Shown here one piece after another: positions 22,905-38,636 of a DNA stretch of 38,672 nt (the stretch's first letter is position 1; the number at the start of each line of letters is the position of its first letter). The translations under genes and the position numbers were made by a program. The stretch spans positions 1 through 38,672 of the forward strand of contig JAIRVJ010000140.1 in NCBI GenBank assembly GCA_031253955.1, read 5' to 3'. The stretch comes from Burkholderiaceae bacterium (GTDB taxonomy: Bacteria; Pseudomonadota; Gammaproteobacteria; Burkholderiales; Burkholderiaceae_C). Under the pieces are notes generated by a model. The model saw only the letters and a program-made list of their open reading frames with translations. It did no database searches and was not told the origin of the DNA.

Positions 22905-23187
22905 CAAACTCATTGCATCCATTCCCGCGCCCAAAGCGCGCCAGCTTGTGGCCTCGGCGGTGCTGATCGGCTGCGCGCTGGTACTGGCCGCAGCCGGCTT
23001 TGGCATCGGCTGGACGCTGCGTCACGTCGAAGACGAACAGGACATGGAGCACGAGCGGGCGGTGGCCGTGCACGCTTCGCAAGCCACCGAAGAGCAGATG
23101 GTGCGCGATCTGAAACTGCTGCTGTCTTGTCAGCAGGTCGCCGCGCCGCCGCTGGCGGACAAACCTGCGGGGCAGGCCAAGCCATGA
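22897..23187 (+). CDS. Small single-TM lysis protein (holin candidate)
   Basis: This encodes 96 residues. Two adjacent ATGs exist; 22897 is chosen because AAGGAG lies 6 nt upstream of it. One strong TM segment spans about residues 16-41 (LVASAVLIGCALVLAAAGFGIGW), with a charged C-terminal tail (HVEDEQDMEHERAV). Size and topology suit a class III-like holin or pinholin regulator. It overlaps Rz by ATGA. Confidence 0.5.
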   Translation: MVDKLIASIPAPKARQLVASAVLIGCALVLAAAGFGIGWTLRHVEDEQDMEHERAVAVHASQATEEQMVRDLKLLLSCQQVAAPPLADKPAGQAKP

Positions 23188-23768
23188 ACTTGCTGGGCTG
23201 GCTGGCGCCTTCATGGGCCATTGCCCTGGCCGCCGCCCTTGCGGGCGCGGCGCTGGGTGGGGGCGTGCAGCAGTTGCGCATCGCCAGCCGGGATGCGCAG
23301 ATTGCCGCGATCAGGCTGGACTGGCAGACCGAGCGCACTGTGCTGGCCGAGAGCAAGGCCGCCGCCGAACGCCAGGCGCGCGAGGCCGAAACCGCGCTGT
23401 CAGATAAAGAGCGCGCCCTCAACGTCACCCTCGCCAACCACGCCCAGGAGAGAGCACATGAACAACTCGATCATCAAGAGCGCCTTGCTGCCGCTCACGC
23501 TGCTAATCGCGGCTTGCGCGAGCAACTCGCCGCCATCCAATCCGCCTATTCTCGTGGCGCGCCAGATTCAACTGCCCGCCCTGCCGCCGGCCAGCCGCCA
23601 GCCGCTGCCGCCGTCGGCGTGCTTGCCGACTTGCTTGGACGCTGCGAGAGCCGCGCAACAGCAGTCGCAGCTTTCGCTGACGCCGCTCACGCCGCCGGAG
23701 CAGCCTGCCAGCAAGACTATGAGGCTGCCCGGCTGGCAACGATGACAGGAGATGGCATGGGGCGGTGA
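23184..23768 (+). CDS. i-spanin (Rz-like)
   Basis: This encodes 194 residues from the ATG at 23184 (ATGA overlap). An uncleaved N-terminal TM (WAIALAAALAGAALGGG) is followed by a periplasmic coiled coil (SRDAQIAAIRLDWQTERTVLAESKAAAERQAREAETAL). The C-terminal part (RCESRATAVAAFADAAHAAGAACQQDYEA) matches Rz-like spanins of the DUF2514 type. With the o-spanin it disrupts the outer membrane in the last step of lysis. The o-spanin gene is nested inside it in the +1 frame. Confidence 0.8.
   Translation: MNLLGWLAPSWAIALAAALAGAALGGGVQQLRIASRDAQIAAIRLDWQTERTVLAESKAAAERQAREAETALSDKERALNVTLANHAQERAHEQLDHQERLAAAHAANRGLREQLAAIQSAYSRGAPDSTARPAAGQPPAAAAVGVLADLLGRCESRATAVAAFADAAHAAGAACQQDYEAARLATMTGDGMGR
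23458..23745 (+). CDS. o-spanin lipoprotein (Rz1-like), nested in Rz
   Basis: This encodes 95 residues in the +1 frame relative to Rz and lies wholly within it. A strong SD (AGGAGAG) precedes the ATG. The signal peptide MNNSIIKSALLPLTLLIAAC ends in a lipobox with Cys20, so the mature protein would be an outer-membrane lipoprotein. It is proline-rich after the signal (SPPSNPP, LPALPPASRQPLPP), typical of Rz1. Interaction with Rz across the periplasm is known for the family. Confidence 0.85.
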   Translation: MNNSIIKSALLPLTLLIAACASNSPPSNPPILVARQIQLPALPPASRQPLPPSACLPTCLDAARAAQQQSQLSLTPLTPPEQPASKTMRLPGWQR

Positions 23769-23995
23769 GCGTGCAGCGCATAGGCCGGATGCTGCCCGGT
23801 TGCCAGCAAGAACAAAGCCCAGCGGTCGGCTCCCATCTGGCGCTCGGCGGATTCGTAGCGCAGCCACGCCCTGCCGTTAGGCGAGCCGGCCAGCGCGGCG
23901 GCTTGTTTCAGCGACAGCCCGGCGCGCTCGCGCACGGCTTTGATCTCCACGGGAGAGGGCACGGCCACGATGAGCGCGTCTGGGTTGGCAGTCAT
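23717..23995 (-). CDS. Small HTH (XRE-type) regulator, Aca-like position
   Basis: This encodes 92 residues from the ATG at 23995 with AAAGGAA upstream; a longer frame to 24130 exists but has no SD. The HTH lies at about residues 17-48: E-I-K-A-V-R-E-R-A-G-L-S-L-K-Q-A-A-A-L-A, then RAWLRYESAERQM, then WALFLLATGQHP. It is the last gene of a three-gene minus-strand operon at the prophage edge and converges on Rz, overlapping it by 52 bp. Small HTH proteins of this kind repress their own operon in anti-CRISPR loci (Aca). The dyads at 24830-24878 are candidate operators; this link is inference. Confidence 0.7.
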   Translation of the reverse strand: MTANPDALIVAVPSPVEIKAVRERAGLSLKQAAALAGSPNGRAWLRYESAERQMGADRWALFLLATGQHPAYALHAHRPMPSPVIVASRAAS

Positions 23996-24027
23996 GGGTT
24001 TCCTTTGACCATTGCGCTGTGCGCTTG

Positions 24028-24486
24028 CTACAGCTCCACGAATTCCCAGCACGAACACATGCCTACATGTACGTCGCCTAACGCCTGTAGCTCGCGCACG
24101 GCCTTGCCGGACTCTTCGGTTTGCAGCCATTGCCGCACGAAGAACTCAGCGTGCTCGCCCTTGTCTTCTTCCAGCGCGTCGATTAGCTGACCGGGGGCAA
24201 TGTCGTTGATGTAGCGCAGGGCCACCAGTTGGCCGCCTGCGCTGGCGGCCAACGCCCAGCCGCAGCCGTGGTAGGCGCTGCCCAGGGTATCGGGTATTTT
24301 GAAAACTTTGTTGGGCATCGGTCGCTCGATTCGTTCGATAAGCCAGTCTTGCAGTTTTTGCCCGCGCGCGCTGGATATTTTTACCCAGCGCCGCTTGGTG
24401 GCGTAGGGCACTCGCAGGTGGACTGACGAGAGGGCCGGTTGCCCCCTCGCGCTGTCATTCGTCGTTGTCAATTTCTGGCTCGTCAT
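24028..24486 (-). CDS. Unrecognised accessory protein of the right-end operon
   Basis: This encodes 152 residues. The frame overlaps the previous gene by 32 bp, which suggests coupling; no clear SD is seen before 24486. The first 55 residues (VHLRVPYATKRRWVKISSARGQKLQDWLIERIE) look like a small RHH-type or helical DNA-binding segment. The remainder (from MPNKVFKIPD at 24318, a possible alternative start) is a distinct domain ending CSCWEFVEL, with acidic helices (LEEDKGEHAEFFVRQWL). I recognise no family. Anti-CRISPR or other counter-defence activity is possible from context only. Confidence 0.55.
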   Translation of the reverse strand: MTSQKLTTTNDSARGQPALSSVHLRVPYATKRRWVKISSARGQKLQDWLIERIERPMPNKVFKIPDTLGSAYHGCGWALAASAGGQLVALRYINDIAPGQLIDALEEDKGEHAEFFVRQWLQTEESGKAVRELQALGDVHVGMCSCWEFVEL

Positions 24487-24793
24487 TTAGCGCGCCGTAT
24501 TTAACCAGCTCTTTGTACAGCTCTCCCGCCGCCCGTGCACCGCCGTGCCGGCTGAAATCCGTGGCAAGCCCGGCGACAGCCCCGTCTTCGTTTTCATAGA
24601 CGAAGAACCCCGACAGATCGCTGGCGATGTAGTCGCGCCAGGCATCGAACTGTTCTTGCTCACTGCCTCCCGTATCAGGCGTGTCACCGTGCCGAATGTA
24701 GGCCGCCGAAGCACGGCGGATGAAATCTGCTTTATCGGCGCATACCCAGCATGAGGCGGGGCGCTGGTGGGGGATTTCTACGATGTAAATCAT
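24455..24793 (-). CDS. Unrecognised small acidic protein, first gene of the right-end operon
   Basis: This encodes 112 residues with a good SD (GGAG, 5 nt before ATG). It begins MIYIVEIPHQRPASCWVCADKADFIRRAS and ends in a strongly acidic tail (NDEPEIDNDE). It is a compact, probably alpha/beta, acidic cytosolic protein without signal or TM. As the first gene behind a near-consensus promoter it should be the most highly expressed of the three. Acidic proteins of this size are typical of anti-CRISPR and DNA-mimic proteins, but I have no homology to support that. Confidence 0.55.
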   Translation of the reverse strand: MIYIVEIPHQRPASCWVCADKADFIRRASAAYIRHGDTPDTGGSEQEQFDAWRDYIASDLSGFFVYENEDGAVAGLATDFSRHGGARAAGELYKELVKYGALNDEPEIDNDE

Positions 24794-24829
24794 GATAACT
24801 CCATGTGTCTTGGGGTTCCGCCCAAGCGG

Positions 24830-24849
24830 TGCGCTAATTATTTAGCGCA
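24830..24849. promoter_or_regulatory. Operator candidate 2 (dyad at the transcription start)
   Basis: TGCGCTAA-TTAT-TTAGCGCA is a perfect 8+8 bp inverted repeat just downstream of the -10 box. A TTAGCGC half-site recurs at 24487-24493, next to the start of the second gene. It differs from the spacer dyad, so two regulators or two binding modes are possible. Confidence 0.65.
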
Positions 24850-24856
24850 TGATTGA

Positions 24857-24884
24857 ATTATATGGCCAAAGGCCATATTGTCAA
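24857..24884 (-). promoter_or_regulatory. Near-consensus sigma70 promoter of the right-end operon
   Basis: Read on the minus strand, TTGACA (24884-24879) and TATAAT (24862-24857) are perfect -35 and -10 boxes separated by 16 bp. The predicted start is near 24850, about 57 nt before the first gene. The spacer is filled by a perfect dyad. Confidence 0.85.
24860..24878. promoter_or_regulatory. Operator candidate 1 (dyad inside promoter spacer)
   Basis: ATATGGCC-AAA-GGCCATAT is a perfect 8+8 bp inverted repeat lying between the -35 and -10 boxes. A protein bound here would block RNA polymerase. The HTH product of the same operon is the obvious candidate ligand; this is inference. Confidence 0.7.
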
Positions 24885-25031
24885 GTATTTTATTGTAAAG
24901 TTTGTGTAAAGTTTTGGTGGTTGAAGGGGCTTTGGCTCCTATGTCGCCGCGCCCCGGACAGCGTTCCGAGGTAGGGCGGCTCGGCAGCGGTTGGGAGGGG
25001 CGCATGGGGTGGCAAAAGTTTCCCGACGTTA

Positions 25032-25051
25032 TGTAGGCACATTTGTAGGCA
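25032..25051. repeat. Tandem TGTAGGCA repeats (possible integrase arm sites)
   Basis: TGTAGGCA occurs at 25032-25039 and 25044-25051, 12 bp apart, about 50-70 bp inside the presumed attR core. Spaced direct repeats near the core are typical arm-type sites for tyrosine integrases. A similar sequence in opposite orientation (GGCTACA at 25067-25073) follows. The call depends on the attR assignment. Confidence 0.4.
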
Positions 25052-25098
25052 TCTTTGCCATGATATGGCTACAACTAGCATAAATACTAGATATTTTG

Positions 25099-25116
25099 AT
25101 CCCTCTCTTTCCGCCA
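25099..25116 (+). other. attR candidate: duplicated 3' end of a serine tRNA gene
   Basis: ATCCCTCTCTTTCCGCCA reads like the end of a tRNA-Ser: 3' half of the T-stem (CCCTC), acceptor strand (TCTTTCC), discriminator G and encoded CCA. No tRNA body precedes it. Instead there is AT-rich phage-like sequence with repeats. Tyrosine integrases that target tRNA genes leave exactly such a 3' fragment at one prophage end. The intact tRNA-Ser would be at the left end, outside the window. Confidence 0.65.
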
Positions 25117-28180: not shown

Positions 28181-28204
28181 CCCTCTCCCGCTTGCGGGAG
28201 AGGG
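28181..28204. repeat. REP-like palindrome CCCTCTCCCGC-TT-GCGGGAGAGGG, copy 1
   Basis: A perfect 11-bp inverted repeat lies between pnp and tpiA. The same 24 bases recur at 33322-33345, and a diverged version lies at 33447-33470. It may also terminate or protect the pnp message. Confidence 0.8.
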
Positions 28205-33321: not shown

Positions 33322-33345
33322 CCCTCTCCCGCTTGCGGGAGAGGG
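33322..33345. repeat. REP-like palindrome, copy 2
   Basis: These 24 bases are identical to the element at 28181-28204 and lie downstream of dnaE. A partial CCCTCTCCCTCTCCCG lies 40 bases upstream. GGGGAGAGGGCC (33348-33359) can pair with GGCCCTCTCCCC (33433-33444), making a composite element of about 190 bases. Confidence 0.8.
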
Positions 33346-38186: not shown

Positions 38187-38636
38187 GGTATAGTTGACTC
38201 TCCAATAAATTAGACACAGACTATACGCCATGTTCAACCAGGAGATCGTCATGGCCTACAGCACCGATTTGAAACAGCGCGTGCTGGCCTATATTGCCGG
38301 GGGTGCCAGCAAGGTTGAGGCAGCCAGGGTTTTTGCTGTCTCGCGCGCCATCGTGTACCTATGGCTGCACCAACGCCCCGATCACCAAAGAGGCAAACCT
38401 GGCCCCAAAACCGGCCATAAGATCGACCGTGCCAGGCTGGCCCAACTCATCAAAGAGCAGCCCGACTTGTTGCAACGCGAGATGGCCCAAATCATGGAGG
38501 TCAGTCCTACTGGCATCTGGCACACGCTCCAAGCCATGAAGATCATCTGTATAGGGGGTTCCACGCCGGAACCGCCGCAATTTTCGTCACCCTCATCCGA
38601 GCGATGTTACCCAGCCATGTCAGATTGAACTATACC
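38187..38636 (+). mobile_element. Truncated IS630-type element with short terminal inverted repeats
   Basis: GGTATAGTT (38187-38195) and AACTATACC (38628-38636) are perfect 9-bp inverted repeats enclosing about 450 bp. The interior encodes only the HTH half of an IS630-family transposase; the DDE catalytic half is missing. TA lies within the ends, in keeping with IS630/Tc1 TA targeting. It looks like an internally deleted, non-autonomous element. Confidence 0.6.
38251..38628 (+). pseudogene. IS630-family transposase, N-terminal (OrfA/HTH) part only
   Basis: This encodes 125 residues from the ATG at 38251 (AGGAG upstream; a frame from 38230 is open). It starts MAYSTDLKQRVLAYIAGGASKVEAARVFAVSRAIVYLWL, then KPGPKTGHKIDRARLAQLIKEQPDLLQREMAQIMEVS and GIWHTLQAMKI. 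This is the double-HTH region of IS630 transposases. After about residue 100 the sequence stops resembling the family (GGSTPEPPQFSSPSS) and ends at the terminal repeat. No DDE domain follows, so the element cannot move without help. Confidence 0.75.

Follow-up and report, generated by a model that had tools for sequence, protein, structure and literature searches.

Does a small operon at the edge of a prophage counter CRISPR-Cas immunity, and how might it be controlled? The operon lies on the minus strand of contig JAIRVJ010000140.1 from a Burkholderiaceae bacterium (assembly GCA_031253955.1). The window, that is, the whole stretch of DNA analysed, is this entire 38,672-bp contig (C105) of a 2.6-Mb assembly of 167 contigs. 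Three open frames encoding 112, 152 and 92 aa (genes 1, 2 and 3) face the lysis cassette. By homology of two of its three genes this is an anti-CRISPR (Acr) operon: gene 2 holds a full-length AcrIIC1 domain, and gene 3 is closest to the anti-CRISPR-associated (Aca) protein Aca10 among PDB chains, in agreement with the acr-aca operon that the initial annotation had read from the architecture. We consider it highly probable that the locus is a prophage anti-CRISPR operon with a strong early burst of expression and subsequent shut-off, in which gene 2 would act as Cas9 inhibitor and gene 3 as repressor. The annotation had also proposed an undescribed system; as a whole the locus is of a known kind, but a domain fusion in gene 2 and a leader element before gene 1 are new, as we found neither described. 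Coordinates are collected in Table 1; labels beginning with L, G and C denote our loci, genomes and contigs, and publications are cited by PMC number.

AcrIIC1 and AcrIF25-type parts of gene 2

Searching all PDB chains, we found six distinct AcrIIC1 chains that matched gene 2 from residue 57 or 60 to residue 149 or 152, with E values from 1.4e-14 (AcrIIC1Vei, the best match) to 3.2e-9; the 5vgb chain scored E 1.2e-9. A four-row AcrIIC1 profile matched gene 2 at E 2.6e-25. The homology spans the whole domain, and Met57 of gene 2 aligns with Met1 of two 86-aa AcrIIC1 chains. In AcrIIC1Nme, Ser79 is crucial for recognition of the HNH domain, and Cys17 and Cys80 form a redox pair (PMC9674691). In the alignments these residues correspond to Ser145, Cys75 and Cys146 of gene 2, so that the HNH-contact serine and both Neisseria redox cysteines are shared; the cysteines are not universal in the family (AcrIIC1Vei reads SGW). 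AcrIIC1 binds the HNH domain of several Cas9 proteins (PMC6282205, PMC10576004). By homology, gene 2 is an anti-CRISPR gene, in line with its earlier assignment to counter-defence or other morons. Its C-terminal 96 residues would block cleavage by the host's type II-C Cas9 through binding to the HNH nuclease domain of that enzyme. In domain length gene 2 resembles the AcrIIC1 proteins of Neisseria, Brackiella and Vei. It differs from them in an extra N-terminus of 56 residues and in following an unrelated 112-aa gene.

This N-terminus resembles an unrelated inhibitor of another type. Residues 21-55 of gene 2 aligned with residues 11-45 of AcrIF25 (8jdh; phmmer E 1.3e-5), and when residues 1-56 were the sole query AcrIF25 was the only PDB match up to E 10 (E 2.7e-6). 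The AcrIF25-type segment and AcrIIC1 share one frame without a stop codon between them. AcrIF25 inhibits type I-F systems by acting on Cas7f via its C-terminal domain (review PMC13131331). The alignment ends at residue 45 of the 166 residues of AcrIF25, and no match to its Cas7f-binding domain was found in gene 2. We do not count the gene 2 product as an AcrIF25 member: the two have an N-terminal segment of ~35 residues in common, after which AcrIIC1 replaces the Cas7f-binding domain. From its pattern the segment is probably a ribbon-helix-helix; residues 1-56, basic with a computed pI of 11.3, would most likely form such a domain, by which the protein would help to control its own operon.

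The same segment was found fused in frame to other domains in AcrIF25, in a Nitrosomonas stercoris plasmid protein, in genome G353 and in viral contigs; it also occurs on Pantoea and Salmonella plasmids and stands nearly alone in L126 and L144. The segment is a mobile module: what follows it varies, and we count five or more contexts (AcrIF25, AcrIIC1, the domain of N. stercoris type, and the domains of L123 and L132). An inhibitor and a probable DNA-binding domain in one chain are also what distinguishes the dual Acr-Aca proteins AcrIIA1, AcrIIA13, AcrIIA15 and AcrIF24 (PMC9410881), but the domains of gene 2 are different ones, and its operon has a separate aca-like gene as well. The joining of a type I-F inhibitor's N-terminus to a type II-C inhibitor suggests that anti-CRISPRs are built from exchangeable parts, with which a regulatory part may travel. 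In a literature that we covered in part, so that absence weighs little, no AcrIIC1 fusion was found described and no publication was found that mentions both AcrIIC1 and AcrIF25.

Gene 2 might instead start at Met57 and encode a free AcrIIC1, the upstream frame being a remnant or a separate product. Besides the alignment of Met57 with the AcrIIC1 start, a GAG lies 6 nt upstream of Met57, no clear ribosome-binding site lies ahead of Met1, and AcrIIC1 genes elsewhere are unfused. Elsewhere the start of the AcrIIC1 gene could be read in seven cases (L005, L032, L033, L049, L050, L053 and L054), and all seven lack the segment; L051, which matched only the last 35 residues, was excluded from this count. 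The fusion is therefore known from this assembly alone, a first point against our interpretation of the operon. However, both homologies lie in one stop-free frame, in-frame fusions of this segment to other domains occur elsewhere, and genes 1 and 2 overlap by 32 nt, so that initiation at Met1 could be coupled. We consider a start at Met57 unlikely and continue to read gene 2 as one fused protein.

Relatives of AcrIIC1 were found on one viral contig, on two Comamonadaceae conjugative plasmids, at three loci of the genome collection and in two further genomes out of 399, a count that sets aside two weak matches. The weak matches in G400 and G476, and H3 (E 0.3), were treated as chance. AcrIIC1Boe was recovered among the relatives, followed by a gene matching Pfam Aca2_YdiL at 1.2e-10; this served as positive control, as AcrIIC1 followed by an Aca2 gene is the published Brackiella arrangement (PMC6282205), whereas the partner in our operon is Aca10-like. 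An upstream extension on the H1 plasmid (residues 34-56) was considered as another fusion and rejected; the frame before its Met is unlike the segment. On the two conjugative plasmids the unfused genes (L032, 3068-3346; L033, 3498-3776) lie between parAB and H-NS/traD genes.

Gene 3, the promoter and gene 1

The initial annotation had suggested comparing the helix-turn-helix protein of gene 3 with the Aca families. Among PDB chains Aca10 was the best phmmer match (7xi5, E 1.9e-7), followed by Aca3 at 0.17; 7xi5 is named in the Aca10 paper (PMC9410881). We also used a nine-sequence profile (A5), made of gene 3 and 8 of 12 other places (L010, L011, L013 and L014 were dropped). It matched Aca10 at 2.9e-29, Aca3 at 6.2e-5, MqsA at 1.7e-4, Aca2 at 0.0016 and HigA-2 at 0.0048; the remaining rows of the profile seem to be nearer to Aca10 than gene 3 itself. 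As in the acrIC7-acrIC6-aca10 operon of Pseudomonas citronellolis, the gene is the last of its operon, a dyad of ~19 bp lies over the core promoter and the critical Arg44 of Aca10 is kept (Arg52 in gene 3). Gene 3 differs from Aca10 in having Leu29 and Leu45 for Q22 and Q37, both mutated in the Aca10 paper, in its operator core, in a longer tail and in accompanying a type II-C inhibitor, whereas Aca10 accompanies type I-C inhibitors.

The promoter TTGACA-N16-TATAAT is the sole exact consensus promoter in the window on both strands; when one mismatch per box was allowed, one further site was listed. Of the description that had been given of the operon, the promoter with dyads and the three frames stood, but the 152-aa protein is not unrecognised, as it has solved relatives. 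When the mononucleotides of the 107-bp region were shuffled 20,000 times, two or more dyads occurred in 0.26% of the shuffles; the region had itself been picked because of the finding. Dyad 1 has the length and position of the Aca10 minimal site, with 12/19 letters identical by eye, a likeness that is weak alone. We propose dyad 1, from its length and place, as operator of the 92-aa protein; gene 3 would be an Aca10-type repressor that binds between the -35 and -10 boxes. By the published rule, acr-aca operons have a consensus promoter whose core holds an inverted repeat; where there is a second repeat, it resembles the first (section 18, PMC9410906). The promoter layout found here fits this rule. 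As dyad 2 is unlike dyad 1, a second binder is possible.

Gene 3 could also be an ordinary helix-turn-helix protein of MqsA or HigA type that does not control the operon promoter. The MqsA and HigA-2 matches of its profile are in keeping with this, and of 2599 Aca-like homologues just 386 (15%) were found to accompany Acrs (section 16, PMC9410906). Yet Aca10 ranks ~25 orders of magnitude above MqsA in the profile, though 8 of its 9 rows are relatives, gene 3 closes the operon, and the dyad lies inside the promoter. We regard this alternative as quite improbable and retain gene 3 as the likely Aca10-type repressor. The searches thus showed gene 2 not to be an ordinary phage protein, and gene 3 not to belong to a helix-turn-helix family never found beside acr genes.

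Gene 1 is small and acidic (computed pI 4.45), and searches of Pfam, PHROGs, PADLOC, NCBIfam and the PDB gave it no substantial match; a DUF7501 match (E 0.0028) was below the cut-off and was not used. None of the three products received a Pfam, PHROGs, PADLOC or NCBIfam assignment above curated cut-offs, and tblastn of each against phage records gave nothing at E 0.01. Gene 1 relatives were found on 4 viral contigs and in 12 other genomes of 399, nine of these 12 matching over the first 32-36 positions only. The N-terminus MIYIVEIPHQ is invariant in five aligned members. Gene 1 is probably another moron. Whether it is a counter-defence gene, or else a general early gene of phages or one for a protein that came from cells, is evenly poised. 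Its phage relatives in L001, L003 and L004 adjoin, by reading, SSB and NinB-like genes, 12 other genomes carry relatives, and a longer, weak relative (L035, 3001-3480) adjoins nifL on a Methylococcus plasmid. Against this can be set its small size, acidity and place at the head of an acr-aca operon, none of them proof.

Table 1. Positions of the operon, its control elements and the prophage features in the window
Feature	Position	Strand	Basis
Gene 1 (P0001), 112 aa, acidic	24455..24793	-	open reading frame
Gene 2 (P0002), 152 aa: AcrIF25-type N-terminus in frame with AcrIIC1	24028..24486	-	sequence comparison
AcrIF25-type segment, gene 2 residues 21-55	24322..24426	-	phmmer
AcrIIC1 domain, gene 2 residues 57-152	24031..24318	-	PDB-chain matches and profile
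Gene 3 (P0003), 92 aa, Aca10-like helix-turn-helix	23717..23995	-	phmmer and profile
Operon promoter TTGACA-N16-TATAAT	24857..24884	-	exact consensus
Dyad 1, ATATGGCC-N3-GGCCATAT, between -35 and -10	24860..24878		perfect 8-bp arms
Dyad 2, TGCGCTAA-N4-TTAGCGCA, untranslated leader	24830..24849		perfect 8-bp arms; unlike dyad 1
Leader motif ACCG and hairpin CTTGGG-CGGAAC-CCCAAG, directly before gene 1 ribosome-binding site	24809..24830	-	fold and viral scan
Rz-like spanin frame, lysis cassette	23127..23768	+	PHROG 312, E 2.6e-16
Probable attachment-site arm, prophage right end	25002..25116		86% identity to same-genome contig C33

The leader hairpin and its linkage to the segment

Three leaders, those of the window operon, of G353 and of the N. 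stercoris plasmid, carry ACCG-N4-GGCGGAACC together with a hairpin that sits immediately ahead of the first gene's ribosome-binding site; the leader of the window folds best with a six-base loop. The element was spotted by eye in these three operons, and a scan of viral contigs was its test. The pattern ACCGNNNNGGCGGAACC followed by GGA and ATG was found in 70 viral contigs (loci L121-L190), compared with 7 for a loop-scrambled control, and the genes that bear it are small and diverse. At the three variable pairs of the stem, Watson-Crick pairing was counted in 45, 43 and 38 of 53 distinct genes (shuffle means 24, 27 and 23), counts that were each reached in 0/5000 shuffles, which ignore relatedness. 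Such covarying stems point to RNA. Within the 70 loci, which were selected by the motif, we counted 47 CGGAA-loop hairpins, 45 of them before GGA..ATG, versus 0-1 for six other loops. Other loops may occur, as two of the seven control matches also form a stem. In 149 genomes a shorter leader pattern gave 11 matches, the window and N. stercoris included, versus 7 for the pattern read backwards, so that much of the chromosomal matching is chance.

Rfam 15 held no family for the leader when we searched the window region, the 2 other operons and 8 of the 70 viral loci, and none of the publications listed for GGCGGAACC concerned phage leaders by title. GGA in a hairpin loop recalls CsrA sites. The hairpin probably controls translation. 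Besides the window and L121-L190, it is located at L090 (1096-1137) and L034 (2938-2980). In L126, L144, L163, L175, L179, L180 and L185 the leader precedes a gene that starts, by eye, like a DnaJ protein.

Although the scan used the RNA pattern alone, 21/70 viral loci proved to encode an AcrIF25-type segment beyond the leader, on its strand and at a distance of 202-726 nt; in the window this distance is 404 nt. All 21 are among the 47 loci with a stem of at least 5 bp. They amount to ~15 distinct sequences, as some contigs are near copies. No segment was found downstream in the seven control loci or in any of L001-L005. From this difference (21/70 versus none of 7), leader and segment look like one regulatory unit before CRISPR inhibitors; their regulatory pairing is inferred from linkage. 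Because the hairpin travels with the segment in other phages, the segment or its operon partner may read the hairpin. RNA binding by Aca2 would be a precedent.

What follows the segment differs between loci. An N. stercoris-type C-terminal domain occurs in 13/70 leader loci, other domains follow in L123 and L132, and a gene-3-like protein occurs in 6/70. In L125, L130, L135 and L173 the order is as in the window: leader, small gene, segment with N. stercoris-type domain, and directly thereafter the gene-3-like protein. A similar operon stands on contig C141 of G353 (L108): its first gene is small and, by eye, acidic, the second encodes a 148-aa protein that begins with the AcrIF25-type segment, and the third is Aca10-like. 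The sequence of its promoter region is TTGCAATACACTCATGGAGTGTGTATATT, with 14/17 letters of the Aca10 site by eye. These independent operons speak for our interpretation of the locus.

The C-terminal domain of the C141 protein is 55% identical to that of the N. stercoris plasmid protein (L034). At its N-terminus the plasmid protein scored 6.7e-10 against AcrIF25; for its C-terminus the PDB gave no substantial match. In contig C176 of G353 the same domain lacks the N-terminus and again precedes an Aca10-like gene. On the N. stercoris plasmid the gene that follows does not resemble Aca10. It scored 9.9e-11 against the Pfam family STIV_B116-like, which is above the cut-off, and 3.7e-9 against STIV B116 among PDB chains. 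The STIV B116 family includes the type III inhibitor AcrIII-1. The domain common to L108, L034 and 13 of L121-L190 is a candidate new anti-CRISPR by its sequence context.

These findings allow a wider hypothesis, which we advance tentatively and hold to be somewhat short of an even chance. The leader hairpin (ACCG, a covarying 5-bp stem, the CGGAA loop and the ribosome-binding site) and the ribbon-helix-helix segment would together make up a regulatory unit that moves among phages and plasmids. In it the segment would repress translation or transcription via the leader, either by itself or jointly with an Aca10-type partner. The unit would be set over unrelated anti-defence proteins, namely the inhibitors AcrIF25 and AcrIIC1 as well as three or more other domains; of these, the one next to a STIV B116-family gene in Nitrosomonas would then be a new anti-CRISPR. 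If so, leader and segment could be used as baits for anti-defence genes. Already, the comparison links a phage leader RNA to the segment and names further domains worth testing for an anti-CRISPR role.

The host Cas9 and the prophage setting

The likely target, an open 1022-aa cas9 of II-C type, is present in the same assembly as the window, so that the known reach of AcrIIC1 and of Aca10-type control widens to a prophage in a host with such a cas9, as the hosts of known AcrIIC1 proteins have. Counting the genome of the window, 14 of the 60 genomes examined had a match above the cas9 family cut-off. Compared with 11 relatives' regions, the host cas9 region was 58-68% identical to eight and 26% identical to two; for L069 a wrong frame had been taken. 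Four Cas9 chains in the PDB matched the host Cas9 at E below 1e-60 (9ar4, 8jtj, 8uza and 8uzb), which we take to be GeoCas9-type. Arrays were detectable in 8 of 14 cas9 regions from 13 relatives, with 15 to 87 copies of the repeat core (L061, L063-L067, L070 and L071). In seven of these eight arrays the 36-bp repeat starts, or reversed ends, as GTTCCGG.

Apart from the absence of the fusion elsewhere, several observations weigh against the operon as an anti-CRISPR locus controlled in the way proposed. Profile support for the ribbon-helix-helix consists of weak Pfam NikA-like matches of three relatives (E 0.011-0.19). Dyad 1 departs from the Aca10 site at 7/19 letters, and the two glutamines of Aca10 are leucines in gene 3. 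The HNH motif of the host Cas9 has Glu-His where chain 9ar4 has Asp-His. The cas9 gene sits on another of the 167 contigs, so that a binning error is possible. None of 331 spacers (20-45 nt kept) from the eight relatives' arrays matches the window, the best of the 40 matches listed being 15 nt exact or 17 nt with one mismatch. Two repeat patterns did not reveal the host's own CRISPR array in its genome, and the own-genome search gave no cas1 match. A cas1-like start was seen, by reading, at the end of the cas9 contig.

The operon might also be a decaying relic in a defective prophage, as the prophage runs off the contig's left end and a self-targeting spacer could not be shown. All three frames are open, though, the promoter shows no departure from the consensus, and the residues with which AcrIIC1 makes contact are retained; decay seems very improbable to us, and we keep the interpretation as a probable anti-CRISPR operon.

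Terminase, portal, head and tape-measure genes lie in the left part of the window, upstream of the lysis cassette, which consists of an M15-peptidase endolysin and an Rz-like spanin. The spanin frame is convergent with gene 3 and overlaps it by 52 nt. By reading, the right part of the window is chromosomal, with rpsO and pnp. The 115 bp ending at 25116 recur in another contig of the same genome, and in same-genus chromosomes homology to the window begins no earlier than ~25268. Given this recurrence and the chromosomal homology starting beyond it, an attachment site near 25116 is probable, which is consistent with the position first assigned to the operon, opposite the late genes and between the lysis cassette and attR.

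No tRNA was found in the window or in the rpsO loci of the 6 relatives examined. The second copy of the arm (G000:C33, L087, 5047-5161, versus window 25002-25116) adjoins a frame that reads like an integrase end and has the orientation expected for a circular phage site. The end of contig C33 is also 80% identical to window positions 38189-38539, by reading a transposase gene. In the chromosomal part, the perfect inverted repeat CCTCTCCCGCTTGCGGGAGAGG occurs twice, at 28182-28203 and 33323-33344.

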